From assembly GCA_015057315.1 (NCBI GenBank), contig SVER01000005.1, forward strand, positions 62,001 through 126,000: a stretch of DNA of 64,000 nt, read 5' to 3'. Below are positions 13,015-37,313 of this stretch, one piece after another. The stretch's first letter is position 1, and every line of letters starts with the position of its first letter. A model generated the notes under the pieces. The model saw nothing but the letters and a program-made list of their open reading frames with translations, did no database searches and was not told the DNA's origin. A program made the position numbers and the translations under genes. The stretch comes from Pseudobutyrivibrio ruminis (lineage in GTDB: Bacteria; Bacillota; Clostridia; Lachnospirales; Lachnospiraceae).

Positions 13015-13814
13015 CTAAAGAGTCCAAAGAACTTCTTTACCTTGATTGATACAGGAGCTGACTCCTCAGAGTATACTCTTGTCTTTCCACTACCCTGGTA
13101 AGAAACTACCTTGTAGTAGTATGTCTTGTTGTTTGCTACTGTTAAATCCCAGAAGCTTGTAAGACCGCTTACAGTTGCAATCTTAGAATATTTACCATTC
13201 TTAGATGTGCTTCTGTAAACAACATAGCCATCTGCGTTAGTATCCTTAGCCCACTTTACGTATACACCAAGGATTGTCTGGCTAATGCCTGTAATCTTTG
13301 GTGTGCTAAGTGCAGGACGTCCTACAGATACAACATCTTCCAAATCCTGTGCTGTAACAACATCTGTAGCTTCATTGTTAAGGCCAAGAACCTTTGTCTT
13401 GATTGTAGTATCCTGTGTCTTAAGACCAGCCTTAACTGTAAACTGAACAGTCATAAGTGTACCAGCAGCTGTCTTTGGAGCATCATTTACGAATGCGTAA
13501 GCAATACCCTTTGCCTCTTCATTTTCATAATTCTTATTTACATCAACTTCACTAAATCTAATTCCCTCAGAATCTGATTTAAGAACTAAAACATTTGGAT
13601 CATATTCAACAGCTACTCTACCATCTGTCACAGTTGTCTTATCAAGTGTAAGCTTGTATGTAATCTTCTGACTATCTGCCTTGCCAGTAGATGTAACTGC
13701 TGTGTGAACTGGTGCAACGCTTGCAGCCTTAGCTACATTTGTATAAGGAGTAGATGTAAATAATGTAAGAGCTGTCAATGCAAGAACAGCTGCTCTCTTT
13801 ATTGATTTATTCAT
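13011..13814 (-). CDS. Secreted protein with cohesin-like domain and fibronectin type III domain
   Basis: Signal peptide; YKLTLDKTTVTDGRVAVEYDPNVLVLKS...AAGTLMTVQFTVKAG cohesin-like pattern; C-terminal Fn3 (VYVKWAKDTNADGYVVYRS...YYYKVVSYQG). Confidence 0.75.
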   Translation of the reverse strand: MNKSIKRAAVLALTALTLFTSTPYTNVAKAASVAPVHTAVTSTGKADSQKITYKLTLDKTTVTDGRVAVEYDPNVLVLKSDSEGIRFSEVDVNKNYENEEAKGIAYAFVNDAPKTAAGTLMTVQFTVKAGLKTQDTTIKTKVLGLNNEATDVVTAQDLEDVVSVGRPALSTPKITGISQTILGVYVKWAKDTNADGYVVYRSTSKNGKYSKIATVSGLTSFWDLTVANNKTYYYKVVSYQGSGKTRVYSEESAPVSIKVKKFFGLFS

Positions 13815-16800
13815 TACTTTCTCCTCCTATAGTATCATCTTCTAAAGTGTCTTCTTCTGTTGAATCATCTTTTGCTGTCTTATCATCTGTCTCTTCATCA
13901 GATTTCTCATCAACAGTAGCTTCTTTAGCTTCAGCATTATCAGCATCGTCTAAAGCTTCTTCCTTATCATCTGTCTTAAGGTCTTTGTCTTCGTCCTTAG
14001 AATCTTTGTCCTTAGAATCATCAACTACCTTAACCTTAATTTCAGCTGTAAGGTGCTTACCCTTCTTATCAGTTGCAAGTGTTGTTGCCTTTACTACTGT
14101 CTCGCCTTCTGCAACTGCTGTGATAACACCGTTTGCTGAAACCTTAGCAATGCTTTCATCATCGCTTGACCATTCAACAAGATTGTAGTTTTCTGCAAGC
14201 CACTTAGGAGAAACTGTTGCCTTAACCTGTGCCTGTTCTCCAACCTTAAGCTCTACTTCACTCTTGTCTACAGTAATATCTGTTACGAACTTTGTATCAG
14301 CATGACCTGTATTGTTAAATCTGTAAACTGTTGAGTTAAGAGCGTAATCATATACCTCTACATAGAATACATCTTCTGGAGCATCGATAAGGATTTCCAT
14401 ATCTGTATCTGCTTCTTCCTGGTTTACAGCATACTTACCAAGAATTGTCTTCTTGTCGCTTCCGATAACGACTACTGCTGCTGTGTAACGGTTATCATAA
14501 GCTGTAATAGAGTACTTTCCGTCTTCTGTCTTAACAGCGTCTGTTACTACTGGTGCTGTGTTATCAATTACCATTGGTGTCTTGATGAACATACCAGGAG
14601 CATTAAGTGTAGAAACATCCTCTACATCATTGTAATAGCTTGGAATAGCCTGAAGTGAAATCTCAACCTCTGTACCATCTGCAAGTGGGTTACCATTAGC
14701 ATCTGTACCAGCCCAGTTAAGATCCTGTGCTGCAAGGCTCTCAAGCCATCTTCCATTGCTTGCGCTATAGAACTCAGCGTACTGGTCTTTTTCGATATGC
14801 TCGAAATACTTCTCCCCTGTATTCTTATCTGTAATTGTAAGAATCAATCTACCAGCATTTCTCATAAGTGAGTAATACTGTGCACCAAGCATTGTTCCAT
14901 TTTCAGAGCTGATTGCATTTCTATCAGCAATGTACTTAGCATCGTCTGCAAAGTAATTTGGAATGTAATACTGCTCGTTATCTATTCCAAGTGGATAGAT
15001 TGAAAGGAAGTTTGTCTTTGAAATACCTGAATATGTTGCAGCATTTTCAGCGTATTCTGGATTGTGAACGTACTCCTCAAAATCAAAATCCTCAAACATT
15101 GGTGAATCCATCCAGCTTCCATAGAATGCAAGGAATGGAACTGATAAATCAACACCACCCTTTACATAGATAAATCCATCAACATACATACCATTCTCAA
15201 AGCCAGCTAAGTACTGTCTATCGCTTTCAGAAAGATTAATAGCTACATTAATCTTTGTGCTATCCTTTACTTCTACAACAGCAAGGTCAAGGTCTGCTAC
15301 AGCCTCACCGCCCTTAAGCTGCTTAGATAAAGCATAAACATCCTTTGTATTTACTACTCCATCCTTATTGAAATCGTAGTAATCTGCATTCTGATCAACA
15401 ATTGCAACGTCTCTAGAACCATTGATGTACTGAAGTAAAACTTTTCTATCCTTATGATTTACCTTGCCATCATCGTTAAGATCATATACAAGCTTTGTAT
15501 CATCAGCTGTAAGAGTTACCTCTGGATTAAGCTTGTGTGAGCTTCCTGCAAAGTATGTAGTTCCATTGCTGTCATAAAGCTCTTCTGTAAGTACTGTAGA
15601 ATCAAGTACATAATACTTAGGATCCTCATCCATGTTATATACATCAAAATCGAATGTATAGTTACCAGACTTTGTAGGATCATCACCCAGTACAGCCTTA
15701 ACCTTACCGTCGTTGCCTTCCTTATCTCCCACTAAGATGTAAGCAGGTGATGAAATAGCATCCTGAACATTAGCAAGACCTGCACCCTGTGAACGTGGTG
15801 AATACTCAAGACCAGTCTTGTCATTATCCTCATAAAGAGGTGATGCAGTACTCATAATAAGTGACTGTGCAAGAGTTCTAACTGAAAGACCAGTCTTCTC
15901 TGCCAAATCATTTTCCTTAATGTACTGCTGTACAAGTGCACTCTGTCCTGCAAGAGATGGAGCTGACATAGATGTACCACTCATCTGACCATAAGTACCA
16001 TCATCTCTTGTTGAGTAGATGTTTCCACCTGGACCTGTAATTTCAGGCTTAAGATCAAGTGAACCTGGAACACCATAAGATGAGAAGTCACTCATTGTAT
16101 ATCCGCCATCAGCGTCTCTGTCTGTTGCAACAGCTGTGTTAACTGTAATTGTACCTTCATATACACCTTCAGCAACCTTAGTTGCAGTAGCCTTAACTGC
16201 GTCACCTTCTGTCTGCTTAATAGAAACCGCTGGAATAACAGCTTTGCTTCCCTGCATTGTCATGCTAATTGAGCCTGGCTGGTTGTTAACAATTACAACA
16301 GCCTTTGCACCAGCTGCTTCAGCATTCATCTGCTTTTCACCAAATGTGATTGCACCTCTGTATACAAATACAATCTTGTCCTTTACATCTACACCTTCGT
16401 AATCAGCTGCCTCACCCTTTGTGTCAAGGTAAACAAATGGATATTCTGTTCCACTCTTGTCAGCTGATGTGTCAAGTGTTAAGAACTTAGGAGCAAGTGT
16501 ATCATTTGCATCTGTATAGAAAATGTTCTTTCCATCAGCAAGTGTAAAGTTGTTAGCTGTCATACCGCTATTTACTGCAGAAGCTACCGTAAATGCGTTA
16601 GTGTATGAACCAGGAGAACCTACAGTATCCTGATTAACATCCTTTGAAAGGTTTACTCCGTATACTGAATCATCTGCCCAGCGGCCAGAGTTACCTGCTG
16701 AGATTGATACTACTGTGCTTGTTCCCTCAAGCTTTTTGAAGATTTCATTTACATACTCTTCTTCATCAGATGAGTTACCAGCTGCTGATGAGCCAAGGCT

Positions 16801-18030
16801 TAAGTTGATTGCGTCTGCCTTAAGAAGAAGTGCATCTTCTATAGCTGCCATGTAATCATCTGTGTATGCACCACCATTTGTACCAAATACCTTCATTGAG
16901 ATAAGCTGTGCATCTGGTGCGATACCTACAACCCCTGCTGCTTCTCTTGCATAACCTGTTTCAGAAGCTGCGTTCTTAACATAGTAGTTTGCTGTAGCAA
17001 TACCAGATACGTGTGTACCATGATCCCCTTCGTCATCATTATCATGAGTGATATCAAGGTTCTTATCTACATAGTTAAATGCAAATGGAACTTTATCATT
17101 ATTGAAAAGTTCTGAAGCTGTAAGACCTTCATACTTCTTTGCCGCATTAAGATTTGGAAGAACATTTTCAATCTCCTCTGCATTAAGAAGATTATAATCA
17201 GAAACACTCTTACTTGCTGCCTCTGCTGTTTCCTCTAAATGAGCGTCAAATGCATCTGCATCAAATGATGGATGATCGATATCGATACCTGTATCAATAA
17301 CTGCGATACGTGTACCTGCACCTGTATAGCCTGTAGCCCATGTTGTGTAAGAGCCTACCATATCACCAGATGTAATAGTGTTTGGCTCAGCCTCTACGCA
17401 AGGCTCATACTGAGTTGCAACATATACAGCTTCAACTCCATCAACCTTTTCAATAGCTTCGATGTCCTTAAATGCAACATCTGCTGAAATGGCATTTGTA
17501 AGAATTGAGAAATTGAAATTTACATTCAACTCTTCTCCATCTAATGCCTCATCAGAAATCTTTGTGATTTCCTTTTCCTGAGCTGCTTCAATCTTGTCAG
17601 CCGCTCTCATAGCAGATTTATTATCTGCTAAATCCTCTGTGTCGTAACCCTTGTCAAGGACACTATCGCCCTCCATAACAATGATTACACGAGTCTGCTC
17701 GTTTGGATCCACCTCTTTGGCTGGTACATCGACCTCTTCACCAGCTAAAGCTTCTGTTGGATCTTCTAACCCTTCTTCCTTAGGGTCTACTTCCTCGAAG
17801 ACTGGTAAATCTTCTGTAGCTTCTGTCGCTTCTGAATCTGCTTTTTCTTCTGAGTCATCAGCTTTTTCTTCTGATGCTTCATCTGTAGCTTTTTCAGTTG
17901 TTTCATCTACAACCTTTTCATCTACCTGATCTTCTACTGGACTAGCTACTGCAGTAACTGTTGGGGCCATAGCAAGTGCTGCCGCCATAATTACTGACAA
18001 TACCTTTTTTGGTATCCAGCTTCTTCTCAT
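13807..18030 (-). CDS. Large secreted S8 (subtilisin-like) protease with PA insert, dockerin-like EF-hand pair, Big_2-like domain and acidic tail
   Basis: Catalytic VIDTGIDIDHPSFD, GDHGTHVSGIA, GTSMSAPSLAG; YDLNDDGKVNHKDRKVLLQYING...YDFNKDGVVNTKDVYALSKQLKGG; Big2 VTDITVDKSEVELKVGEQAQV; Asp/Glu-rich C-terminus. Confidence 0.92.
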   Translation of the reverse strand: MRRSWIPKKVLSVIMAAALAMAPTVTAVASPVEDQVDEKVVDETTEKATDEASEEKADDSEEKADSEATEATEDLPVFEEVDPKEEGLEDPTEALAGEEVDVPAKEVDPNEQTRVIIVMEGDSVLDKGYDTEDLADNKSAMRAADKIEAAQEKEITKISDEALDGEELNVNFNFSILTNAISADVAFKDIEAIEKVDGVEAVYVATQYEPCVEAEPNTITSGDMVGSYTTWATGYTGAGTRIAVIDTGIDIDHPSFDADAFDAHLEETAEAASKSVSDYNLLNAEEIENVLPNLNAAKKYEGLTASELFNNDKVPFAFNYVDKNLDITHDNDDEGDHGTHVSGIATANYYVKNAASETGYAREAAGVVGIAPDAQLISMKVFGTNGGAYTDDYMAAIEDALLLKADAINLSLGSSAAGNSSDEEEYVNEIFKKLEGTSTVVSISAGNSGRWADDSVYGVNLSKDVNQDTVGSPGSYTNAFTVASAVNSGMTANNFTLADGKNIFYTDANDTLAPKFLTLDTSADKSGTEYPFVYLDTKGEAADYEGVDVKDKIVFVYRGAITFGEKQMNAEAAGAKAVVIVNNQPGSISMTMQGSKAVIPAVSIKQTEGDAVKATATKVAEGVYEGTITVNTAVATDRDADGGYTMSDFSSYGVPGSLDLKPEITGPGGNIYSTRDDGTYGQMSGTSMSAPSLAGQSALVQQYIKENDLAEKTGLSVRTLAQSLIMSTASPLYEDNDKTGLEYSPRSQGAGLANVQDAISSPAYILVGDKEGNDGKVKAVLGDDPTKSGNYTFDFDVYNMDEDPKYYVLDSTVLTEELYDSNGTTYFAGSSHKLNPEVTLTADDTKLVYDLNDDGKVNHKDRKVLLQYINGSRDVAIVDQNADYYDFNKDGVVNTKDVYALSKQLKGGEAVADLDLAVVEVKDSTKINVAINLSESDRQYLAGFENGMYVDGFIYVKGGVDLSVPFLAFYGSWMDSPMFEDFDFEEYVHNPEYAENAATYSGISKTNFLSIYPLGIDNEQYYIPNYFADDAKYIADRNAISSENGTMLGAQYYSLMRNAGRLILTITDKNTGEKYFEHIEKDQYAEFYSASNGRWLESLAAQDLNWAGTDANGNPLADGTEVEISLQAIPSYYNDVEDVSTLNAPGMFIKTPMVIDNTAPVVTDAVKTEDGKYSITAYDNRYTAAVVVIGSDKKTILGKYAVNQEEADTDMEILIDAPEDVFYVEVYDYALNSTVYRFNNTGHADTKFVTDITVDKSEVELKVGEQAQVKATVSPKWLAENYNLVEWSSDDESIAKVSANGVITAVAEGETVVKATTLATDKKGKHLTAEIKVKVVDDSKDKDSKDEDKDLKTDDKEEALDDADNAEAKEATVDEKSDEETDDKTAKDDSTEEDTLEDDTIGGESNE

Positions 18031-18319: not shown

Positions 18320-20413
18320 TTATTTAACTGAATATAAAATCTCACCGTATGTAGGATAAGGCCAGATATCACTAGGTACAACTGTCTCTAATTCATCTAC
18401 AACCTCTCTAAGCTCATTCATATCTGCAAAAATTACGTCATGATGGAACTTAGCAAGCTCATATGTATCTTCTAATTCCTTAGCCTTTTCAATATCTGCC
18501 TCCAGCTTCTCTAATCTCTCATCCATTGTAAATGTAAGCTTAGCTGCCTGCTCCAGTCTCTTCTTTTCTACAGATGAATCTACAGCCAGGCCTGTTGCTG
18601 CCTTTGCATTAAGAGTCTCGGCAAGTGAATACTGATAGTCGTTTGCTGCTGCCATAATATTTTTCTTAACCATGGCATCCATTGTAAGAGCCTCAATATC
18701 GATTACCTTATAATAGTTCTCCAGCTGGATATCATAACGGCTGTAAAGCTCCTGCTCTGTAAATACGTTATGCTTTGTAAATACATCAATAGCCTTCTTA
18801 TCAATAAATGCAGGAAGAGCATCTACTGTAGATTTAAGGTTCTTAAGACCTCTTCTTTCAGCCTCCTTAACCCATTCCTCTGCATAGCCATTACCATTAA
18901 ATATAATGCGCTTGTGGGCTGTAAGCTCTCTCTTTAAAAGCTCTGCTAATGCCTTATCAAAATCAGCAGCCTTTTCAAGTTCTTCTGAGAACTTATCAAG
19001 CTCTTCTGCTACAATTGTGTTTAAGATTACGTTTGGACCAGAGATAGATGCAGATGAACCAAGTGATCTAAACTCAAACTTGTTGCCAGTAAATGCAAAT
19101 GGTGATGTTCTGTTTCTATCTGTTGTATCCTGTGAGATGCTTGGAATTACAGCAGCACCTACTGACATCTTCTTCTTTTTGATATCCTCGTAATCTGTAC
19201 CATCAATGATAGATTCTACAATTGCTTCTAGCTCATCTCCAAGGAACATAGAAATGATTGCTGGTGGTGCCTCGTTAGCGCCTAATCTATGATCATTTCC
19301 TGCAGAAGCAACCGATACTCGGAGTAACTCCTGGTATTCGTCAACTGCCTTAATAACAGCTGTAAGGAATAGTAAGAACTGTGCGTTATGGGAAGGAGTA
19401 GCACCTGGTTCTAACAGGTTTACTCCGGTATCAGTCGAAATAGACCAGTTGTTGTGCTTACCGGAACCATTAACACCTGCAAATGGCTTTTCATGAAGAA
19501 GGCAGGTCATGCCATGACGCTTTGCCACTACCTTCATCATTTCCATTGTAAGCTGGTTGTGATCTGTAGCGATATTTGTTGTTGAGTACACTGGAGCAAG
19601 CTCATGCTGAGCAGGTGCTACCTCGTTGTGCTTGGTCTTTGCAAGTACACCAAGCTTCCAAAGCTCCTCATCAAGCTCCTTCATAAATGCAGATACACGT
19701 GGCTTGATAGTTCCGAAATAGTGGTCGTCTAATTCCTGGCCCTTAGGTGGCTTTGCCCCAAATAAGGTTCTACCTGTATAGATAAGATCTGGTCGCTTGT
19801 TATACATTTCCTCATCAATAAGGAAGTATTCCTGCTCTGGACCTACTGTTGTAATAACTCTCTTTACATCATCATGACCAAAAAGCTTTAGGACTCTTAC
19901 TGCTGATTTATCAAGGGCTTCCATAGAACGAAGTAGTGGAGTCTTTTTATCAAGTGCCTCACCTGAATATGAACAAAAAGCTGTAGGAATACAAAGTGTA
20001 TCATCCTTTATAAACACATAGCTTGTTGGGTCCCATGCTGTATATCCTCTAGCCTCAAATGTTGCACGAAGTCCTCCTGAAGGGAAAGATGATGCATCAG
20101 GCTCGCCCTTAATAAGCTCCTTACCTGAGAAGGTCATAATCACTCTTCCGCCTTCCTCTGGCTGAATAAATGAATCGTGCTTTTCTGCTGTTACACCTGT
20201 CATTGGCTGGAACCAATGGGTAAAATGTGTTGCTCCAAGCTCTATAGCCCACTCCTTCATGGCATGTGCTATTACGTTGGCTAGCTCTCTATCTAGAGGA
20301 CGACCTTCCTCTACTGTCTTTTTAAGGGCTTTGTAGGCATCCTTAGGAAGACGCTCCTTCATAGTTTCATCGTTGAATACTTTGCTTCCGAAAATCTCTG
20401 TTACTTTACTCAT
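18320..20413 (-). CDS. glnN: Glutamine synthetase type III
   Basis: 697 aa; GSIII features ([57 protein letters not shown]). Confidence 0.93.
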
Positions 20414-20434: not shown

Positions 20435-20533
20435 CCCTCATCCGTCGACTTCGTCGCCACCTTCCCCCAGAGGGGGAAGGCTTTAAGGCTTCCCCCTCTG
20501 GGGGAAGCTGTCACCGAAGGTGACTGATGAGGG
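20435..20533. repeat. ~99 bp imperfect palindromic element: two inverted ~46-nt monomers (CCCTCATC..GTC..CTTCCCCC..GGGGGAAG)
   Basis: CCCTCATCCGTCGACTTCGTCGCCACCTTCCCCCAGAGGGGGAAGG-ctttaagg-CTTCCCCCTCTGGGGGAAGCTGTCACCGAAGGTGACTGATGAGGG; partial copies at 36915 and 45896. Confidence 0.9.
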
Positions 20534-20543
20534 TAATATTTAT

Positions 20544-22130
20544 TTAAATACCTGATGCACCATAGTTGCTCAGCACTCTCGCTGACGGGTCATCTACATT
20601 ACAGCCTTCCCAAGCTTTATTCGGCATCCAAAAGTCCACTACCATGTGGGCTTGCCCTGGATAATATTTTTCAAACAAATCTCTATAGAGAAGTGATTCC
20701 TTTGTAAATGGTGTAGCAAATTCGTATTTACGATATGCATTCTTTACATCCTCATCTGTGTAAAGGCTGTTTGCATATTCCTTTAGGTAATCCACCATGG
20801 AATGACCTACCGCATCTGAAAATGCTGCTTTCTCCCTAAACAGTATCTCATGTGGCAGGTAGTCGCCTTCCTCGAATGCATGTCTAAGCAAATACTTTCC
20901 CTTGTTATAAGTATTCATCTTAAGCTTTGGATTAATGCTCATTACATATTCAACAAAATCCAAATCTCCGAAAGGAACTCTGGCTTCCATGGAGTGTACG
21001 GAAATACACCTGTCTGCCCTTAGTACATCGTACATGTAAAGCTCTCTAAGTCTCTTTTCTGCTTCCCTTTGAAATTCCTCTTCGTTTGGAGCAAAATCTG
21101 TATATTTATATCCGAAAATCTCATCCGAAATCTCACCAGTAAGTAGAACCCTTATTTCAGGAAACTGCTTCTTGATTCCTTTGCAGATAAGGTACATTCC
21201 CATGGATGCTCTGATTGTTGTTATATCATAGGTTCCAAGTGCGGCTATAACTTCTTCTAAGCTTTCTAGCACTATGTCCTTATTGATGATGATTTCGTGA
21301 TGCTCTGAGCCTATGTAATCTGCAACCTCTTTGGCATATTTTAAATCGATTGCATCCTCATTCATTCCTATTGCAAAGGTCTTAATAGGCTTATTCATAA
21401 GCTTAGTTGCAATGGCACATACCAAAGAAGAATCAAGTCCACCTGATAAAAGAAATCCTACAGGAGCATCTGCATCCAGCCTCTTTTCAACACCTCTTAC
21501 CAGCTTTTCCTTAATCTTTGCTGCAACCTCCTCAATTGAATCCTTACTGTAAGGCATTCGCTTCGCCAGGTCTTTATAGCAGGTAAACACGCCTTTGTAA
21601 TAGTAATGTCCCGGTGGAAATGGCTTCACCTCATCGGTAAGACCTACCAGGTTCTTTGCCTCTGATGCAAACATGATTGCACCTTCACTATCGTATCCAT
21701 AGAACAAAGGTCTGATTCCAATTGGATCTCTTGCTGCCACCAGGTCATCTAATTCCTTGTCATAGATAACCATTGCAAACTCTGCATCAAGCTTATTAAA
21801 CATCTGACATCCGTATTTACGATACATTGGAAGAATAATTTCGCAATCACTATCGCTTAGGAAATGATAGCCCTCTGCCTTAAGTTCTTCCCTCACCTGC
21901 TTAAATCCGTACAGCTCTCCGTTGCATATTACGTAATTTCCATCAAGCTCAAAGGGCTGCATTCCTGAATCAGTTAATCCCATGATGGAGAGCCTCTGGA
22001 ACCCTAAGACGCTGTCGTTTACTGTGATGACCTTTTGCATATCAGGTCCTCTTGTTACTGTTTTTGCAAATGCCTCTTCAAAATCCTTCATCTCGATGTG
22101 GCATTTACTTAAAGCCATTATTGAACACAT
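20544..22130 (-). CDS. asnB: Asparagine synthase (glutamine-hydrolysing)
   Basis: MCSIMALSKC with Cys2 nucleophile, RGPDMQKV, LLSGGLDSSLV PP-loop. The track start at 22190 lies inside the leader hairpin; MCSI at 22130 is preferred. Confidence 0.92.
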   Translation of the reverse strand: MCSIMALSKCHIEMKDFEEAFAKTVTRGPDMQKVITVNDSVLGFQRLSIMGLTDSGMQPFELDGNYVICNGELYGFKQVREELKAEGYHFLSDSDCEIILPMYRKYGCQMFNKLDAEFAMVIYDKELDDLVAARDPIGIRPLFYGYDSEGAIMFASEAKNLVGLTDEVKPFPPGHYYYKGVFTCYKDLAKRMPYSKDSIEEVAAKIKEKLVRGVEKRLDADAPVGFLLSGGLDSSLVCAIATKLMNKPIKTFAIGMNEDAIDLKYAKEVADYIGSEHHEIIINKDIVLESLEEVIAALGTYDITTIRASMGMYLICKGIKKQFPEIRVLLTGEISDEIFGYKYTDFAPNEEEFQREAEKRLRELYMYDVLRADRCISVHSMEARVPFGDLDFVEYVMSINPKLKMNTYNKGKYLLRHAFEEGDYLPHEILFREKAAFSDAVGHSMVDYLKEYANSLYTDEDVKNAYRKYEFATPFTKESLLYRDLFEKYYPGQAHMVVDFWMPNKAWEGCNVDDPSARVLSNYGASGI

Positions 22131-22149: not shown

Positions 22150-22257
22150 ACACAAAAAGGCGTCGTGACTGGTGCATAAGCACTAATCACGACGCCTTTG
22201 TCGTTCCATTGATTTTTATTTGTTAAGTATAATATTCGTTTGACAATAATTTGTCAA
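22150..22257 (-). promoter_or_regulatory. asnB promoter and leader with intrinsic terminator and a competing ANTAR-type hexaloop hairpin
   Basis: Minus strand: TTGACA-17 nt-TATTAT; ACGAC-AAAGGC-GTCGT hairpin (22189-22204) whose loop and 3' arm are also the 5' arm of AAAGGCGTCGTGA...TCACGACGCCTTTTT (22154-22199). Confidence 0.72.
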
Positions 22258-22272
22258 TAACTATTTTTTAAT

Positions 22273-22839
22273 TTACCCATATTTTTTTATAATATCCTTT
22301 GCCATTTGATATCTAGATATTCGTAAGTCCATGGCACTCTTCTCTATCTGCTTATGAGCCTCTTCCTCAGTCAAATTCTCGTTGATAATGAGAAGTAGCT
22401 TGGCCCTTGAAATGGTCTTTAGCTCCTCTAACTTCTTCTCAAGCTTGGCACTTTCCTTGTGAGCCATTCCAATACGTCTTTGCGCCGCCAGTGCATGCCG
22501 CAGTGCCTGCCAAAGCAGCTGCTTACTAATAGGCTTTGATACTGTGATAATACCGTAGTCTGCCACCTTATCTGTTATCTCATCATACAAATCTGCCTTG
22601 ATAAACAGCAGTATCTGGCACACATTTTTTTCAGCTATATCTATAACCTGTTCGATGGAATTAGAGCCACCAAGAGGCAGATTTACAAAGCATATATCAA
22701 AATCATAGTCAGTAATAGCACGCTTTGCTGCTGGTATGCTTTCCACTAAAAGCATATCAATATACCCATTTTCCTTCAGATAGGATTTGTAGAATGCGCT
22801 AGCCTTTTCGTTATCGCAGACAATTAACGCTCTTTCCAT
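22273..22839 (-). CDS. Receiver-like domain + ANTAR RNA-binding domain protein (putative transcription antiterminator)
   Basis: C-terminus ISRAKLLLIINENLTEEEAHKQIEKSAMDLRISRYQMAKDII matches ANTAR; receiver-like N-terminus has DICFVNLPLGG, i.e. Asn at the expected phospho-Asp position. Confidence 0.88.
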   Translation of the reverse strand: MERALIVCDNEKASAFYKSYLKENGYIDMLLVESIPAAKRAITDYDFDICFVNLPLGGSNSIEQVIDIAEKNVCQILLFIKADLYDEITDKVADYGIITVSKPISKQLLWQALRHALAAQRRIGMAHKESAKLEKKLEELKTISRAKLLLIINENLTEEEAHKQIEKSAMDLRISRYQMAKDIIKKYG

Positions 22840-22856: not shown

Positions 22857-24104
22857 CTATATGCTCATTTTGATTGTCTCAATATAATTTTCTGCGATTT
22901 TTGCAAAGTTTGATTCCTTCAAAAAGCTACTATTTGAAGCGCATTCGATAGCCTCCTCAATAGTTGCTGGAAGCGTATCTAGCTTAGAGTATTCTTCCTC
23001 AGTAAGAAGCCTTGATTTAACCTCTAGTGCAGGTGGAAGTTTTTCCTTGCCCTTCACTCCTGCAATACCAGCCTGTAAAATAATTGCTGTTGCAAGATAA
23101 GGATTAAGGCATGAATCTGGTGAACGAAGAATAAAATGCTTTCTTCTACCATTAATTTCTGGCACTCTAAATAATCTGGAATTATTCTGCATAGACCAGG
23201 TAATATATTTAGGAGCCTCCAGATAACCTAATCTATCATAGGAATCCCTACGGCAGTTTAAGAAGATTGTAATGTCTCGCATTCTATTGATAATGCCTGC
23301 CATAAAGCTATCGGAAAATTCCTTATCCTCACTGATAAGGTTCTTCTCCCCCTTATGTGTAGACATGAGAATATGCAAGCCATTACCTGGTGCATCATCT
23401 ATTGGCTTCGGCTCAAAGCAGGCATAGGCACCATTTCTTGCTGCAATATTTTCAACTACATTTTTGTAGGTCACGAAGTTATCTGCAGTAGTCAGTGCAT
23501 CTGCAGATTGAAAATCTATTTCGTTTTGACCAGGACCTCTTTCATGATGTGAGGACTGAGGGGAGATTCCCATCTCCTCTAAGCTAAGACAAATCTCACG
23601 CCTTATGTTTTCTGCTCTGTCACTAGGAGCGACATCCAAGTATCCACCATTATCAAATGGCTCATCTGTTGGAATTCCGTTATCATCAGTCTTAAAGAGA
23701 TAAAACTCTGAACGCAGTCCCATCTTGGTAGAAAAGCCCATGTCTTCGCACTGCTTAAGAGTGTCCTTTAAAAACTGCCTGTAGTCCATTGAAAATGGTG
23801 TACCATCTGCATAAACCACATCACAGTAAAACCTGATTACACGGCCAGATGATGGGCGCCATGGCAACACATGAAGCGTATCTGCATCAGGCTTTAGGAA
23901 TAAATCCTTCCCCATTCCATCCTCAAAGCCAAGGATTAAAAATGGGTCGAAATTAATTCCATCCTCAAATGCGCTCTTAAGCTCTGATGGCATAATAGAA
24001 ATATTCTTTTGATTTCCGTACAGGTCACAAAATGCCAGACGGATAAATTTTACGTCGTTTTCTTCAACAAACTCTAATATATCATCGATTGATAAATGTG
24101 ACAT
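22857..24104 (-). CDS. Glutamine synthetase family protein with altered catalytic residues (possible pseudoenzyme)
   Basis: GS fold motifs SSHHERGPGQNEIDF, GNGLHILMS, RSPDSCLNPYLATA, but GLRSEFYLF replaces GPEPEFFLF and KHFILRSPD replaces TRxExRxPD. Confidence 0.88.
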   Translation of the reverse strand: MSHLSIDDILEFVEENDVKFIRLAFCDLYGNQKNISIMPSELKSAFEDGINFDPFLILGFEDGMGKDLFLKPDADTLHVLPWRPSSGRVIRFYCDVVYADGTPFSMDYRQFLKDTLKQCEDMGFSTKMGLRSEFYLFKTDDNGIPTDEPFDNGGYLDVAPSDRAENIRREICLSLEEMGISPQSSHHERGPGQNEIDFQSADALTTADNFVTYKNVVENIAARNGAYACFEPKPIDDAPGNGLHILMSTHKGEKNLISEDKEFSDSFMAGIINRMRDITIFLNCRRDSYDRLGYLEAPKYITWSMQNNSRLFRVPEINGRRKHFILRSPDSCLNPYLATAIILQAGIAGVKGKEKLPPALEVKSRLLTEEEYSKLDTLPATIEEAIECASNSSFLKESNFAKIAENYIETIKMSI

Positions 24105-24161: not shown

Positions 24162-25658
24162 CTAGAGGTTTGTATACCCCATAAGATATTCATCTACCTG
24201 TCTTGCACAGTCTCTTCCGCTTCTGATTGCCTTCACTACCAAGGATTGTCCTGTGTGCATATCGCCGGCTGTAAATACCTTATCTACATTTGTGGCAAAG
24301 CTGTCTTTAGCTACTGATGCCACATTAGTTCTGGCATCTAATCCTACCTTAAAGGCATTTACCACATATTTTTCAGAACCTAAAAATCCTGCTGCAATCA
24401 GACACAGCTGACATTTCACTTCTTTTTCAGTTCCCTCTACAGGAACCATCATCTTGCGACCTGTCTTTTTATCCACCTTTGACTCCAGTGATACAAGCAC
24501 AACAGATTTAAGATTACCTGATTTGTCTGTCTTAAATTCCTTTACAGTAGTGGTATAGATACGTGGGTCGTGGCCAAATTTTGCAATTGCCTCCTCCTGA
24601 CCGTAATCAGTCTTGCAAACAAGAGGCCACTGTGGCCAAGGATTATTCTCTGCTCGCTGATCTGGTGCCTTTGGCATCATCTCAAGCTGGGTCACTGATT
24701 TGCAGCCATGACGAATAGCTGTACCAACACAATCGTTTCCTGTATCGCCGCCGCCAATGATAACCACATCCTTATCCTTTGCAGATATATACTGACCATC
24801 TACAAGCTGCATATTGTTATTCCACAGACACTTTGTAGTAGAGGCAAGGAAATCCACAGCAAAATGTATTCCCTTAGCTTCCTTGCGACCAATGGCATCA
24901 ATATCCCTAGGATTAGATGAACCACAGCAAAGCACTATTGCATCATACTTTGATGTAAGCTCTGATGACTTAACGTTATCACCAATATTCGCATTTACGA
25001 TAAAGCTAACCCCCTCCTGCTCCATCACATGAATCTTTCTATCAATAATCTGCTTTTCAAGCTTCATGTTTGGAATACCGTAGCGAAGTAATCCACCTAC
25101 CTTATCGTTTCTTTCATAAACTGTTACACTGTGACCTCTTCTATTAAGCTGGTCTGCAACAGCCAGGCCTGATGGGCCAGAGCCTACTACAGCAACTCTT
25201 TTTCCTGTGCGTTGCTTTGGTGGATTAACATCAGCAAGGCCATGGTCATAGGCATACTCTATTATTGCCATTTCATTAGCCTTTGTGGTAACAGCTTCAC
25301 CATTTAGGCTACAGGTACAGGCCTTTTCGCATAAGCCTGGACACACTCTGCAGGTAAACTCTGGGAAATTGCTAGTCTTATGTAATCTCTTGTAAGCAAT
25401 ATCTAAGTTTCCCTGATACACTAAATCATTCCATTCAGGAATCAGATTGTTAAGCGGACAGCCTGATGTCATCCCCTTAATAGTCATTCCTGACTGGCAA
25501 AATGGCACACCACAATCCATACATCTGGCTGCCTGTCGCTGACGCTCTTCAGTAGATAATGGTGTGTGAAATTCATTAAAATTCTTAATACGCTCCAGAG
25601 GATGTGAAGCCACTTCCTCTACACGCTCATATTCTAAAAATCCTGTAGATTTTCCCAT
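24162..25658 (-). CDS. gltD: Glutamate synthase small subunit
   Basis: CMDCGVPFCQSG, CRVCPGLCEKACTCSLNGE, GSGPSGLAVADQLNRRGHSVTVYER. Confidence 0.95.
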   Translation of the reverse strand: MGKSTGFLEYERVEEVASHPLERIKNFNEFHTPLSTEERQRQAARCMDCGVPFCQSGMTIKGMTSGCPLNNLIPEWNDLVYQGNLDIAYKRLHKTSNFPEFTCRVCPGLCEKACTCSLNGEAVTTKANEMAIIEYAYDHGLADVNPPKQRTGKRVAVVGSGPSGLAVADQLNRRGHSVTVYERNDKVGGLLRYGIPNMKLEKQIIDRKIHVMEQEGVSFIVNANIGDNVKSSELTSKYDAIVLCCGSSNPRDIDAIGRKEAKGIHFAVDFLASTTKCLWNNNMQLVDGQYISAKDKDVVIIGGGDTGNDCVGTAIRHGCKSVTQLEMMPKAPDQRAENNPWPQWPLVCKTDYGQEEAIAKFGHDPRIYTTTVKEFKTDKSGNLKSVVLVSLESKVDKKTGRKMMVPVEGTEKEVKCQLCLIAAGFLGSEKYVVNAFKVGLDARTNVASVAKDSFATNVDKVFTAGDMHTGQSLVVKAIRSGRDCARQVDEYLMGYTNL

Positions 25659-25670
25659 GACTAATCCTCC

Positions 25671-28600
25671 TTAAGCACCTTGACCATTCATTAGTAGATT
25701 AAAGGCTTCAATCTGAGCCTGCTCGTAGGACAAGCCCTTAGCCTCCATCTTTACCATGGCCTCTAACATCTTCTTGTAATCAAATGGCACAATCTTCTTA
25801 AACTTAGGCAGATAATCGCTAAAGTTATCATAGATTTCCTTACCCTTCTTAGAGCCTGTAGCCTTCACATGCTCGCCGATAATATCTTTAAGCTCCATAA
25901 CATCATACTTATCTGTTACTGTCTCAAGACTTACCATAGATTTATTCAGCTTCTTATATAGGGTAGCATCCTCATCCAGTACATAGGCGATTCCACCGCT
26001 CATACCTGCTGCAAAATTCTTGCCTGTTTCACCAAGTACAACCACGCGGCCACCTGTCATGTATTCACAGCCATGGTCACCGACACCCTCTACTACGGCT
26101 GTGGCACCAGAGTTTCTTACAGCAAAACGCTCACCTGCAACACCGTTAATAAATGCCTTGCCACTGGTAGCACCATATAGTGCTACATTTCCGATGATGA
26201 TGTTCTCATCCTCCTTGTAGGTAGCACCCTCTGGTGGATATACTATTAGCTTTCCGCCTGATAGGCCTTTACCAAAATAATCGTTAGAATCACCAGCCAG
26301 CTTAAGTGTAAGTCCCTTTGGAATAAATGCACCAAAGGACTGGCCACCAGCACCATGGCAATTTACCTTATAGGTATCCTCAGCTAAGCTTTCACCATAC
26401 CTTCTTGTAAGCTCTGCTCCAAGAAGTGTTCCAAGGCTTCTATCCGTATTTACGATATCAACTGTTACTTCCTTTGGCTTTCCTGCTGCAATTGCACTCT
26501 TAAGCTCCTTTAAAAGTACCCTTTCATCTACAGTCTTTTCAAGCTCAAAGTTATATACATTCTTCTTAGCATACTCAATCTTCTCTCCACCTGATGGATT
26601 GCTAAGTACAGCTGTTAAATCCACCTTTTCAAATGGACTGTTCTTTGTAGTCTCCTTTAGCTTAAGTAAATCTGTTCTTCCACATAACTCATCCACTGTT
26701 TTGCAGCCAAGTGATGCCATGTATTCACGGAGCTCCTCGGCAATAAACCTCATAAAATTAACTACATACTCTGGCTTTCCTTTAAAGCGCTTTCTAAGCT
26801 CAGGGTTTTGGGTAGCAACTCCCACAGGGCATGTATCCAGGTTGCACACACGCATCATTACGCATCCCATAGTTACAAGTGGTGCTGTAGCAAATCCAAA
26901 TTCCTCTGCACCAAGTGCACAAGCTATTGCAACATCACGGCCTGACATGAGCTTACCATCAGTCTCAATTACTACCTTGTTTCTAAGGCCATTCATAATA
27001 AGAGTCTGATGAGCCTCTGCAAGACCAAGTTCCCATGGCAAGCCTGCATTATGTATTGATGATTTTGGTGCTGCACCGGTACCACCATCGTATCCAGAGA
27101 TTAAGATTACCTGGGCACCTGCCTTAGCAACACCTGATGCAATAGTGCCGACACCAGCTTCTGATACAAGCTTTACAGAAATACGTGCATCCTTATTTGC
27201 ATTCTTTAAATCATAGATAAGCTCTGCCAAATCCTCAATTGAATAAATATCATGATGAGGTGGAGGGGAAATAAGGGCTACACCAGGAGTAGAAAGACGT
27301 GTCTTTGCAATCCATGGATATACCTTCTTTCCTGGCAGATGGCCTCCTTCTCCAGGCTTTGCCCCCTGTGCCATCTTTATTTGGATTTCCTTGGCAGATA
27401 CTAAGTATTTGCTGGTAACACCAAATCGTCCTGATGCCACCTGCTTAATAGCTGAACAACGGTTAAGTCCATCAGGACCTACTTCGTATCTTTCGTCCTC
27501 TTCTCCACCTTCACCAGAGTTAGACTTGCCGTGAAGCTGATTCATAGCAATAGCCATAGTCTCATGGGCTTCCTTTGAAATAGAACCGTAGCTCATGGCA
27601 CCAGTCTTAAATCGCTTTACAATGGAATCAACTGATTCTACCTGATCAATACTAATACCCTTCTTAGGATAATTAAAATCTATAAGTCCTCTTAGATTTC
27701 TAACATTATCCTCTTCATTTACAAGTGAGGTGTACTCCTTAAATGTATTGTAATCTCCTGTTCTTGTAGCAAGCTGTAAAAGATGAATTGTAGCAGGATT
27801 ATATAGATGCTCCTCTGCACCAGAGCGCATCTTATGCTGACCTCTTGAATCAAGAGTCTCATCCACATCAAGGCCCAGTGGATCAAAAGCCTTAGAATGC
27901 TGCATTTCCACATCAGACTCAATATCTTCTAGCGTTATTCCACCAATTCTTGAAATGGTGCCAGTGAAATATCTGTCTATAACATCCTTGCTAATTCCAA
28001 TAGCCTCAAAAATCTTAGCACCCTGGTAAGACTGTACGGTAGAAATACCCATCTTGGATGCAATCTTTATAATTCCGCTGATTACAGCCTCATTGTAAGA
28101 ATCGATGGCTGCATGTATATCCTTCTTTAGCTGTCCCTTTTCAATAAGCTCCGCAATAGTCTCCTGTGCAAGATAAGGGTTGATTGCAGATGCGCCATAT
28201 CCCAGCAATGTTGCAAAATGATGTACCTCTCTTGGCTCACCTGATTCTAAGATAAGTGAAAGTGATGTACGCTTCTTTGTCTGTACCAGATGATGCTGTA
28301 CTGCTGCAACTGCAAGAAGTGAAGGTATAGCTACATGATTTTCATCTACTCCTCTATCTGAAAGGATGATGATATTAGCTCCTTCGTGGTTCACCTTATC
28401 CACCTCTACATATAGATGCTCAATGGCCTTCTCTAAGGATGTGTTCTTGTAATATACAATAGGCACAGTGGCAGTCTTAAGACCTGGAACCTTCATGGAT
28501 TTAATCTTCATCAAATCTGTTGTTGTAAGGATAGGATTATTAATCTGCAGCATGTTACAGTTTTCTTCCTTCTCTTCAAGGACGTTTCCTGCTGTTCCAA

Positions 28601-30209
28601 GATAGATGGTTGTAGCTGTAACAATTTCCTCTCTGATAGAATCAATAGGCGGATTGGTTACCTGGGCAAACAGCTGCTTGAAGTAATTAAACAGTGGCTG
28701 ATGATTCTTTGAAAGTACTGCAAGTGGCACATCAATACCCATGGCTCCGGTGTTTTCCACACCGTTAAGTGCCATTGGAAGAATTGAATCCTTTATCTCC
28801 TCATAGGAATAACCAAATGCCTTCTGCAATCTATCTCGTTCAGTAGCAGAATACTTTGGCACTGGCTCATTAGGAATCTTGATATCAGCTAAGTGTGCAA
28901 GATTAGCATCAAGCCACTGACCATAAGGCTGTCTATTTGCATAGGTAAGTTTCAGTTCATTATCATCTATCAAACGTCCTTCTACAGTGTCAACAAGAAG
29001 CATCTTACCTGGCTTTAATCTATCCTTAAGCTTTATCCTACTTTCCTCAATAGGAAGTACACCTACCTCTGATGAAAGAATAAGATAATCGTCGTTTGTA
29101 ATATAGTAGCGGGATGGTCTAAGACCGTTTCTATCAAGCACCGCACCCATAATGTCACCATCTGAAAACAGAATAGATGCTGGTCCATCCCATGGCTCCA
29201 TCATTGTTGAATAATACTGATAGAAATCTCTCCTTGCCTGCTCCATAGCCTTGTTCTTTACCCATGGCTCTGGAATAGTAATCATTACTGCAAGAGGAAG
29301 TGGCATTCCATTCATTACAAGAAACTCAAGTGCGTTATCAAGCATTGCTGAATCAGAACCAGCCTGATTACATACAGGAGTAATCTTTGTCATCTCATCC
29401 TCTAGCACCTGGGAAACCATTGTCTCCTCTCGGGATAGCATCTTGTCTGCATTCCCCTTTATTGTATTTATCTCACCATTGTGCACGATAAATCTGTTTG
29501 GATGGGCTCTCTCCCATGATGGATTTGTATTGGTAGAGAAACGTGAATGTACTGTTGCTATTGCAGATTCGTAGTCCTCATCTAACAAATCCTCAAAGAA
29601 AAGTCTTAGCTGATCTACAAGAAACATTCCCTTATATACAATAGTTCTACTTGAAAGGGATGCCACATAGGTGTCCTCAGCTGTCTGCTCAAACACACGT
29701 CTTGCCACATAAAGCTTTCTATCAAATGCCAGTCCCTTTTCAACATCCTTAGGCTTTTTGATAAATGCCTGAGCAATAAATGGCATACAATCCACTGCAA
29801 GCTTTCCTAAGATTTCAGGTCTTGTTGGAACATCTCTCCAGCCTAAGAACTCCATTCCTTCCTTTTCCACAATGATTTCAAACATCTTCATTGCCTGTTT
29901 TCTTTTAAGCTCATCCTTTGGAAAGAAGAACATTCCCACACCGTATTCACGCTCATCGCCTATTTCAATCTTAAGCTCACTACATGCCTTCTTGAAAAAC
30001 TTGTGTGATATCTGAAGCAGAATTCCTACACCATCACCAGTCTCACCTGATGCATCCTTGCCAGCTCTATGTTCTAAGTTTTCAACAATCTTTAGGGCAT
30101 CTGAAACTGTCTGATGAGTCTTGATTCCTTTGATAGATACAACAGCTCCTATACCACAATTGTCATGCTCAAAACTAGGGTCATACAGACCTTTCATTTG
30201 ATTGTCCAT
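25671..30209 (-). CDS. gltB: Glutamate synthase large subunit
   Basis: HDNCGIGAVVSIKG class II GATase, RMGAMSYGSISKEAHE-type FMN domain (KTGAMSYGSISKEAHETMAIAMN), GXGXG C-terminal repeats; start at 30209 follows GGAAGGAG. Confidence 0.95.
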   Translation of the reverse strand: MDNQMKGLYDPSFEHDNCGIGAVVSIKGIKTHQTVSDALKIVENLEHRAGKDASGETGDGVGILLQISHKFFKKACSELKIEIGDEREYGVGMFFFPKDELKRKQAMKMFEIIVEKEGMEFLGWRDVPTRPEILGKLAVDCMPFIAQAFIKKPKDVEKGLAFDRKLYVARRVFEQTAEDTYVASLSSRTIVYKGMFLVDQLRLFFEDLLDEDYESAIATVHSRFSTNTNPSWERAHPNRFIVHNGEINTIKGNADKMLSREETMVSQVLEDEMTKITPVCNQAGSDSAMLDNALEFLVMNGMPLPLAVMITIPEPWVKNKAMEQARRDFYQYYSTMMEPWDGPASILFSDGDIMGAVLDRNGLRPSRYYITNDDYLILSSEVGVLPIEESRIKLKDRLKPGKMLLVDTVEGRLIDDNELKLTYANRQPYGQWLDANLAHLADIKIPNEPVPKYSATERDRLQKAFGYSYEEIKDSILPMALNGVENTGAMGIDVPLAVLSKNHQPLFNYFKQLFAQVTNPPIDSIREEIVTATTIYLGTAGNVLEEKEENCNMLQINNPILTTTDLMKIKSMKVPGLKTATVPIVYYKNTSLEKAIEHLYVEVDKVNHEGANIIILSDRGVDENHVAIPSLLAVAAVQHHLVQTKKRTSLSLILESGEPREVHHFATLLGYGASAINPYLAQETIAELIEKGQLKKDIHAAIDSYNEAVISGIIKIASKMGISTVQSYQGAKIFEAIGISKDVIDRYFTGTISRIGGITLEDIESDVEMQHSKAFDPLGLDVDETLDSRGQHKMRSGAEEHLYNPATIHLLQLATRTGDYNTFKEYTSLVNEEDNVRNLRGLIDFNYPKKGISIDQVESVDSIVKRFKTGAMSYGSISKEAHETMAIAMNQLHGKSNSGEGGEEDERYEVGPDGLNRCSAIKQVASGRFGVTSKYLVSAKEIQIKMAQGAKPGEGGHLPGKKVYPWIAKTRLSTPGVALISPPPHHDIYSIEDLAELIYDLKNANKDARISVKLVSEAGVGTIASGVAKAGAQVILISGYDGGTGAAPKSSIHNAGLPWELGLAEAHQTLIMNGLRNKVVIETDGKLMSGRDVAIACALGAEEFGFATAPLVTMGCVMMRVCNLDTCPVGVATQNPELRKRFKGKPEYVVNFMRFIAEELREYMASLGCKTVDELCGRTDLLKLKETTKNSPFEKVDLTAVLSNPSGGEKIEYAKKNVYNFELEKTVDERVLLKELKSAIAAGKPKEVTVDIVNTDRSLGTLLGAELTRRYGESLAEDTYKVNCHGAGGQSFGAFIPKGLTLKLAGDSNDYFGKGLSGGKLIVYPPEGATYKEDENIIIGNVALYGATSGKAFINGVAGERFAVRNSGATAVVEGVGDHGCEYMTGGRVVVLGETGKNFAAGMSGGIAYVLDEDATLYKKLNKSMVSLETVTDKYDVMELKDIIGEHVKATGSKKGKEIYDNFSDYLPKFKKIVPFDYKKMLEAMVKMEAKGLSYEQAQIEAFNLLMNGQGA

Positions 30210-30243
30210 GTCCGCTACTCCTTCCACATCGTAGTTTCTTTGT

Positions 30244-30342
30244 AAAAAAATAAAGGCGCCTAAAGAAACTCCCCCTAAAGGGAATTTCCTTAGACGCCTT
30301 TGTCTTGTGCAAAACTATACAACTATTTTAAAAATAATGCAA
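30244..30342 (-). promoter_or_regulatory. gltB promoter and leader with intrinsic terminator and competing ANTAR-type hexaloop hairpin
   Basis: Minus strand: TTGCAT-17 nt-TATAGT; AGAC-AAAGGC-GTCT (30292-30305) overlapping AAAGGCGTCTAAGGAAA...TTTCTTTAGGCGCCTTTATTTTTTT (30244-30301). Confidence 0.72.
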
Positions 30343-36986: not shown

Positions 36987-37313
36987 AAAAAAAGTCCTTG
37001 ATAGAAACCAGTTTCTAGTTTCTATCAAGGACGAATAATCTAATCCGCGGTGCCACCTTGAATTCATAGGCTAGCCTATGCTCTTACAGGATACCATCAT
37101 ACCCCTGGCTACTAACGTAAGCCTTACGTCGTGCAATACTCTGAACTTAATCATTTCCTCACGCCCTCAGGAGTCCATTCCCTAATTGCTATCATACCGC
37201 ATCCCACCATCGCGGCTCTCTACCATGAATCACAAAGAGGTACTCCTCTCCCTCATCGGTTTAATACTTTATTGTGTTGAAGTAACTATACCATTTGGAA
37301 TATTTGTTGTCAA
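36987..37313 (-). promoter_or_regulatory. trp operon promoter + tryptophan T-box riboswitch + terminator
   Basis: Minus strand TTGACA-17-TATAGT (37313-37285); specifier region GGGAATGGACTCC with UGG (37177-37175); T-box AAGGTGGCACCGCGG (37045-37060); terminator GTCCTTGATAGAAACTAGAAACTGGTTTCTATCAAGGACTTTTTTT. Confidence 0.93.

Follow-up and report, generated by a model that had tools for sequence, protein, structure and literature searches.

In Clostridium saccharobutylicum the GS/GOGAT genes are induced on nitrogen limitation by antitermination through NitR (Stutz et al. 2007, via PMC6316151), and in C. thermocellum the cluster Clo1313_2030-2036 also contains an ANTAR gene with GS/GOGAT genes (PMC4676874). 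Two ANTAR proteins with protein partners have been described elsewhere: AmiR of Pseudomonas, a non-phosphorylated pseudo-receiver, answers to the amide-binding protein AmiC (PMC3369936), and NasT of Paracoccus is held by NasS (PMC3795266). The RNA targets of ANTAR proteins follow a rule of A at loop position 1 and G at position 4 (PMC3369931), and the dual hexaloops bound by EutV, NasR and AmiR are mutually exclusive with a terminator (PMC3369931, PMC8934654). Walshe et al. cut the binding unit to one hexaloop, argued that a dimer still has to bind one hexaloop after the other if termination is to be avoided, and asked how far single hexaloop sites are used (PMC8934654).

The window analysed here, a stretch of 64,000 nucleotides from Pseudobutyrivibrio ruminis, contains on its minus strand a run of genes transcribed in the order gltB, gltD, GS-like, ANTAR, asnB and GSIII:

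25671..30227 (-), gltB, glutamate synthase large subunit, the first gene after a leader element (ORF list, profile matches)
24162..25658 (-), gltD, glutamate synthase small subunit (ORF list, profile match)
22857..24104 (-), GS-like gene, a GSI-derived pseudo-glutamine synthetase (pseudo-GS) of 415 aa and proposed nitrogen sensor (Pfam Gln-synt_N/_C, residue losses, dN/dS 0.03-0.1, fold)
22273..22839 (-), ANTAR protein of 188 aa with a pseudo-receiver, the phospho-acceptor Asp being replaced by Asn53 (Pfam PF03861, residue table, structure)
20544..22130 (-), asnB, asparagine synthase (start set at ATG 22130, MCSIM...; the ORF list has 22190)
18320..20413 (-), GSIII, covering glutamine synthesis (Pfam GSIII_N)

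The start of asnB was set at ATG 22130 because this makes Cys2 the catalytic residue. The ANTAR gene starts 17 bases downstream of the stop codon of the GS-like gene.

As described for NitR, the ANTAR gene is clustered with GS/GOGAT genes and those genes have terminator leaders. In the NitR system the GS was treated as an enzyme, whereas here the adjacent GS is degenerate and the RNA element is defined. The candidate sensor gene adjoins the ANTAR gene, as in the AmiC-AmiR and NasS-NasT pairs (here in 148 of 150 loci, see below), and the pseudo-receiver lacks the Asp, as in AmiR. However, AmiC and NasS are of solute-binding-protein origin, whereas the partner proposed here is GS-derived. A GSI that reports the nitrogen state to a gene regulator, as we propose, has a parallel in the feedback-inhibited GS of Bacillus with TnrA and GlnR; that GS is an active enzyme with DNA-binding partners, whereas here catalysis looks lost from the sequence, R62 is lost and the regulator would be RNA-binding.

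An earlier note on this DNA had described the GS-like protein as a GS homologue lacking metal-site residues, and had proposed it as a glutamine or ATP sensor that controls the ANTAR protein. In GSI the n2 metal site consists of E129, E357 and H269 (residue numbers are those of mature E. coli GlnA), and the substrate glutamate is held by G265, R321 and R359. Alignment of the GS-like protein to E. coli GlnA confirmed the two exchanges in the earlier note (Glu to Arg, Glu to Ile): E129 corresponds to R131 and E357 to I325, so that two of the three n2 ligands are gone. The third, H269, is retained as H244, and the two Glu residues do belong to the same metal site, as had been stated. Further changes are R339 = N308, R355 = H323 and N264 = P239, of which the last two were missing from the earlier list. 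Three of the altered codons are located as follows:

23712..23714 (-), codon 131 of the GS-like gene, Arg in place of the n2 ligand Glu129 (alignment to GSI)
23181..23183 (-), codon 308, Asn in place of Arg339 (residue table)
23130..23132 (-), codon 325, Ile in place of the n2 ligand Glu357 (alignment to GSI)

Displacement of the ligands, the alternative that the earlier note had allowed for, was checked in pairwise alignments to GSI structures. No gap was found near the positions of E129 or E357, which indicates that the Glu residues were lost and not displaced. All n1 ligands are present (E131, E212 and E220, as E133, E188 and E195), and D50, G265, R321, the flap Glu E327, R344 and R359 are also retained. 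At the position of R62, which is the glutamine-feedback residue of Bacillus GS, the window protein has Asp62, and its flap loop is one residue shorter than in GSI, as had been noticed before. The protein matched GSI in sequence, with Pfam scores of 259.6 and 67.5 bits; against the NCBIfam GlnA equivalog it scored 302 bits, below the cut-off of 429. Its AlphaFold model has the full GSI fold (pLDDT 90.8, TM about 0.93 vs GSI structures), and the fold matches include the GS-TnrA (4s0r) and GS-GlnR peptide structures.

GS loci of Clostridia were collected by similarity to the window protein. An ANTAR gene is located directly downstream in 148 of the 150 loci of this sample with enough downstream sequence; this and the following counts are of sequences, not of events. 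The loci were split in two groups, one conventional-looking (32 sampled) and one degenerate (116), the latter forming a tree branch with an SH-aLRT of 100 (quick method). All 32 conventional members have an intact n2 site and a flap of normal length, and 23 have R62. Every member of the degenerate clade has N264 replaced and the flap shortened (116/116), so that the short flap of the window protein is a mark of its own clade, found in none of the 32 conventional ANTAR-linked GSIs. The R62 position is mostly Asp, Asn or Gly in the degenerate clade, Arg being lost in nearly all of it. At least one of D50, E129, E327, R339, R344 and E357 is lost in 102 of the 116, and all six scored catalytic residues are present in 14. 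The positions E131, E212, E220, G265, H269, R321 and R359 were changed in only 6 of 812 cells.

The lesions within the degenerate clade differ in type: flap Glu to Lys, loss of the n2 pair E129 and E357, or changes in D50, R339 and R344. Losses like those of the window protein recur in ANTAR-adjacent orthologues, a check that the earlier note had suggested, and this points to more than chance. E129 and E357 are lost jointly in 36 of the 116 loci, singly in 3 + 3 and not at all in 74, counts in which the sequences are not independent; the pair was lost in at least two lineages, Pseudobutyrivibrio and, separately, Ruminococcus. The minimum number of changes on the tree was 3 for n2, 7 for E327 and 6 for D50.

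The two ANTAR-free loci are second GSI copies (L062 and L064), which keep every scored catalytic residue, and the ANTAR-linked copy in these genomes has E327K, the flap Glu to Lys exchange. Together with Caldilineaceae GSIs, which keep all scored residues, they were used as unlinked controls. Conventional Lachnospiraceae GSIs were rejected for this purpose, since these have an ANTAR gene downstream as well. Catalysis and partnership can therefore coexist, and pairing does not need catalytic loss. The conventional-looking GSIs of Lachnospiraceae at loci L143-L174, probably active as judged from their residues, precede a second type of ANTAR protein with Gly at the phospho-site, and the leader element described below was found with several of them. 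This ANTAR type and the shared leader suggest that an active GS may be the sensor there.

Within Pseudobutyrivibrio the dN/dS of the GS-like gene was 0.03-0.1, close to that of gltD and asnB, with synonymous sites near saturation in the more distant pairs. Reading frames are intact across genera, and pocket and gene order are conserved. The genome contains three GS genes, the GS-like gene and two GSIII, which bears out the earlier claim that GSIII covers the enzyme function; of the 299 family genomes 295 contain GSIII, including the ones that lack GSI altogether, so the loss of GSI catalysis can be borne. Since parts of the active site are lost and the gene is nevertheless selected for beside an RNA-binding switch, the pseudo-GS probably no longer makes glutamine, and would instead tell the RNA switch when to turn on nitrogen-uptake genes.

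The 188-aa protein encoded next to it passed the Pfam cut-off for ANTAR and did not pass that for the receiver domain. Its best structural matches include Rv1626, EutV and AmiR. Among its relatives, 102 of 116 have Asn at the phospho-acceptor position, and 27 of 33 proteins of the second ANTAR type, beside conventional GSIs, have Gly there. A receiver without a phosphorylatable Asp is not expected to obey a histidine kinase as ordinary receivers do; it would need a protein partner, as AmiR needs AmiC.

To find RNA targets, all collected loci were scanned for six-base-loop hairpins that share their loop and 3' arm with a T-tailed terminator, as the 5' arm of the latter. The scan yielded 158 terminator-overlapping hexaloops, 43 of which had the loop C[AANGGC]G; in the reversed-sequence control no loop of this type was among the ten most frequent. 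The AANGGC loop agrees with the ANTAR target rule (A1, G4, terminator overlap). Two such leader elements are located in the window:

30247..30307 (-), leader element before gltB, AGAC[AAAGGC]GTCT (30305-30292) overlapping the 5' arm of a T-tailed terminator (covariance model 47.3 bits, folds)
22151..22205 (-), leader element before asnB, ACGAC[AAAGGC]GTCGT (22204-22189) overlapping a terminator (covariance model 47.8 bits, folds)

The 5' parts of these leaders alone fold as the hexaloop, and the whole leaders as terminators (-37 and -34 kcal/mol). Among 78 leader-like sites whose selection ignored the stem, its positions 3 and 4 pair in 86-88%, vs about 30% in 307 others, and the compensatory pairs at these positions include G-C, A-U, C-G and U-A types. 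The whole genome contains only three strong covariance-model matches, before gltB, asnB and amtB. The third GACAANGGCGTC site was considered as a chance match, which was rejected because an ammonium transporter gene follows it (open-ended ORFs included). This transporter gene (L180, 1480-2, minus strand) encodes a C-terminal tail resembling the start of a PII domain, and the locus ends there.

The element was present in 23 of the 30 family genomes with a GS-ANTAR pair vs none of the 20 without GSI (Fisher 2.4e-8); the remaining 7 paired genomes had no element at the covariance-model threshold. Of 23 sites with a readable next gene, 19 precede genes that assimilate nitrogen or use glutamine (GSIII, gltB, a GOGAT amidotransferase, asnB, amtB, GSI or pyrG). 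An ANTAR domain was seen in 3 of the 20 genomes without GSI (G019, G063 and G121), in ORFs of the odd lengths 585, 100 and 74 aa; the one in G019 is about 2 kb from a GSIII gene.

These targets resemble those of EutV, NasR and AmiR in their A1/G4 hexaloop and in being mutually exclusive with a terminator, and differ from the dual-hexaloop targets in having a single hairpin just downstream of the -10 box, its near-fixed AANGGC loop closed by C-G. No dual hexaloop was found in a search of the window, and Rfam at the gathering threshold gave only a T-box over the window. Where a leader has clear -35 and -10 boxes, the distance from the -10 box to the start of the hairpin is mostly 4-11 bases (transcript starts being predicted), which leaves no transcribed room for an upstream partner hairpin. 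Leaders with room for one (asnB leaders, about 24 bases) showed no partner hexaloop either: upstream the numbers were 1 of 43 vs 1.5 expected, and downstream 2 of 36 vs 0.8 expected. The hexaloop hairpin is a likely target of the partner ANTAR proteins; we infer this binding from the loop rule, from the co-occurrence of element and gene pair, and from their common gene cluster.

Taken together, we consider it probable, though by no means certain, that the GS-like protein is an inactive-looking GSI scaffold which serves as sensor partner of the downstream ANTAR protein and thereby controls antitermination. The circuit of sensor, switch and target is well supported by its anatomy, and the pseudo-GS lacks residues for normal Mg-ATP-dependent glutamine synthesis but keeps its glutamate/glutamine pocket. 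For the inactivity of the pseudo-GS, RNA binding by the ANTAR protein, the sequestration of the ANTAR protein, the ligand and the direction of control, we infer the following. At nitrogen excess the ligand-bound pseudo-GS, with glutamine as the best guess, would keep the ANTAR protein in an inactive state, with terminators forming in the leaders before gltB, asnB and amtB. When nitrogen is short, the ANTAR protein would be free to bind each leader's single 5'-terminal C[AANGGC]G hexaloop and would block terminator formation. This would allow expression of glutamate synthase, along with the pseudo-GS and ANTAR genes that follow it, of asparagine synthase and of the ammonium transporter. Glutamine as the signal of plenty fits a regulon of nitrogen-assimilation genes; with R62 lost in nearly the whole clade, it would have to be sensed differently.

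The nitrogen-sensor part of the earlier proposal was given strong circumstantial support by the pairing, the selection, the pseudo-receiver, the presence of GSIII and the RNA regulon. Its ATP-sensor half is disfavoured and was set aside, since the eroded residues are on the metal-ATP/phosphoryl-transfer and ammonium side, and the glutamate/glutamine side is conserved. The family-wide pairing, which includes intact ANTAR-linked GSIs, and the antiterminator RNA of the system go beyond that note. Whether the same holds for the whole group is evenly balanced in our view: a whole clade of Clostridia GS may have been turned by several different catalytic losses into dedicated nitrogen sensors acting on an Asp-less ANTAR protein, which would control ammonium assimilation by way of a single-hexaloop antiterminator at the extreme 5' terminus of the mRNA.

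Adjacent genes are no proof of protein contact, and other roles of the GS-like protein were weighed. The full fold, the intact n1 site and flap Glu of the window copy and the strong purifying selection are also what would be expected of a protein that is still an enzyme, such as a GSI-derived ligase that runs on a single metal or has reconstructed its n2 site, makes glutamine slowly or forms another gamma-glutamyl amide, and shares no more than its regulation with the ANTAR gene; ligases resembling GS that use other substrates are known. However, different essential residues were hit in different lineages with no common new site, only the ANTAR gene and no substrate-specific gene travels with the GS-like gene, and 295 of 299 genomes have GSIII, so we regard an enzymatic role as improbable. 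Selection also bears on the idea of a decaying GSI relic made needless by GSIII. Although many catalytic residues are lost and GSIII is present, a dN/dS of 0.03-0.1 rules out a decaying pseudogene, and with intact frames across genera and a conserved pocket and gene order we give a relic next to no credence.

The protein might instead act on GSIII or glutamate synthase, as a regulatory subunit or an inhibitor, given that it shares one gene run with gltBD and GSIII in the window and that an oligomeric GS could form mixed assemblies. We think this quite unlikely, as its other neighbours differ from genome to genome, whereas an ANTAR gene adjoins it in 148 of 150 loci, GSIII is found in 295 of 299 genomes, including those without GSI, and the subunits of the GSIII and GSI folds differ. 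A more serious, if still doubtful, alternative accepts the ANTAR protein as partner and reverses the sign or changes the ligand, so that for instance glutamate or 2-oxoglutarate would release the ANTAR protein, as amide does AmiR and nitrate NasT. AmiC and NasS do free their ANTAR partner on ligand binding, the conserved pocket is that for the alpha-amino acid part, and R62-type glutamine feedback is not conserved. On the other hand, the regulon serves nitrogen scarcity, so that a signal of plenty should block it, and a glutamine-bound GS holding a regulator is known from TnrA of B. subtilis.

Searching the open-access literature for GS pseudoenzymes and GS-ANTAR sensor pairs, we found no report of such a system, and no description of nitrogen sensing in Lachnospiraceae and Ruminococcus. 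The link between ANTAR and GS/GOGAT genes is already known; what is new is a degenerate GS as ANTAR partner, a catalytic loss that is graded across the Clostridia, and leaders with a single hexaloop. Together, sensor, switch, RNA site and targets make up a complete candidate circuit for nitrogen sensing in Lachnospiraceae and Ruminococcus, and the system occurs in gut and rumen bacteria. If the pseudo-GS is indeed the sensor, an enzyme was turned stepwise into a sensor, with intact and degenerate stages alive in sister lineages. The leaders also bear on the question of Walshe et al. about the natural use of single-hexaloop ANTAR sites (PMC8934654).

Three other elements were observed in the window. 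Directly before the GSIII gene a near-perfect long inverted repeat is located at 20438-20530 (-). With up to 2 mismatches allowed, the genome has about 32 copies of its core, CTTCCCCCAGAGGGGGAAG, and the repeat therefore looks like a small mobile repeat element. A T-box leader (Rfam RF00230, 115 bits) is present at 37024-37265 (-), upstream of the tryptophan gene region. Finally, 13807-18030 (-) encodes a secreted-looking subtilase of 1407 aa with PA, dockerin type I and Big_2 domains, a case of a dockerin on a protease.
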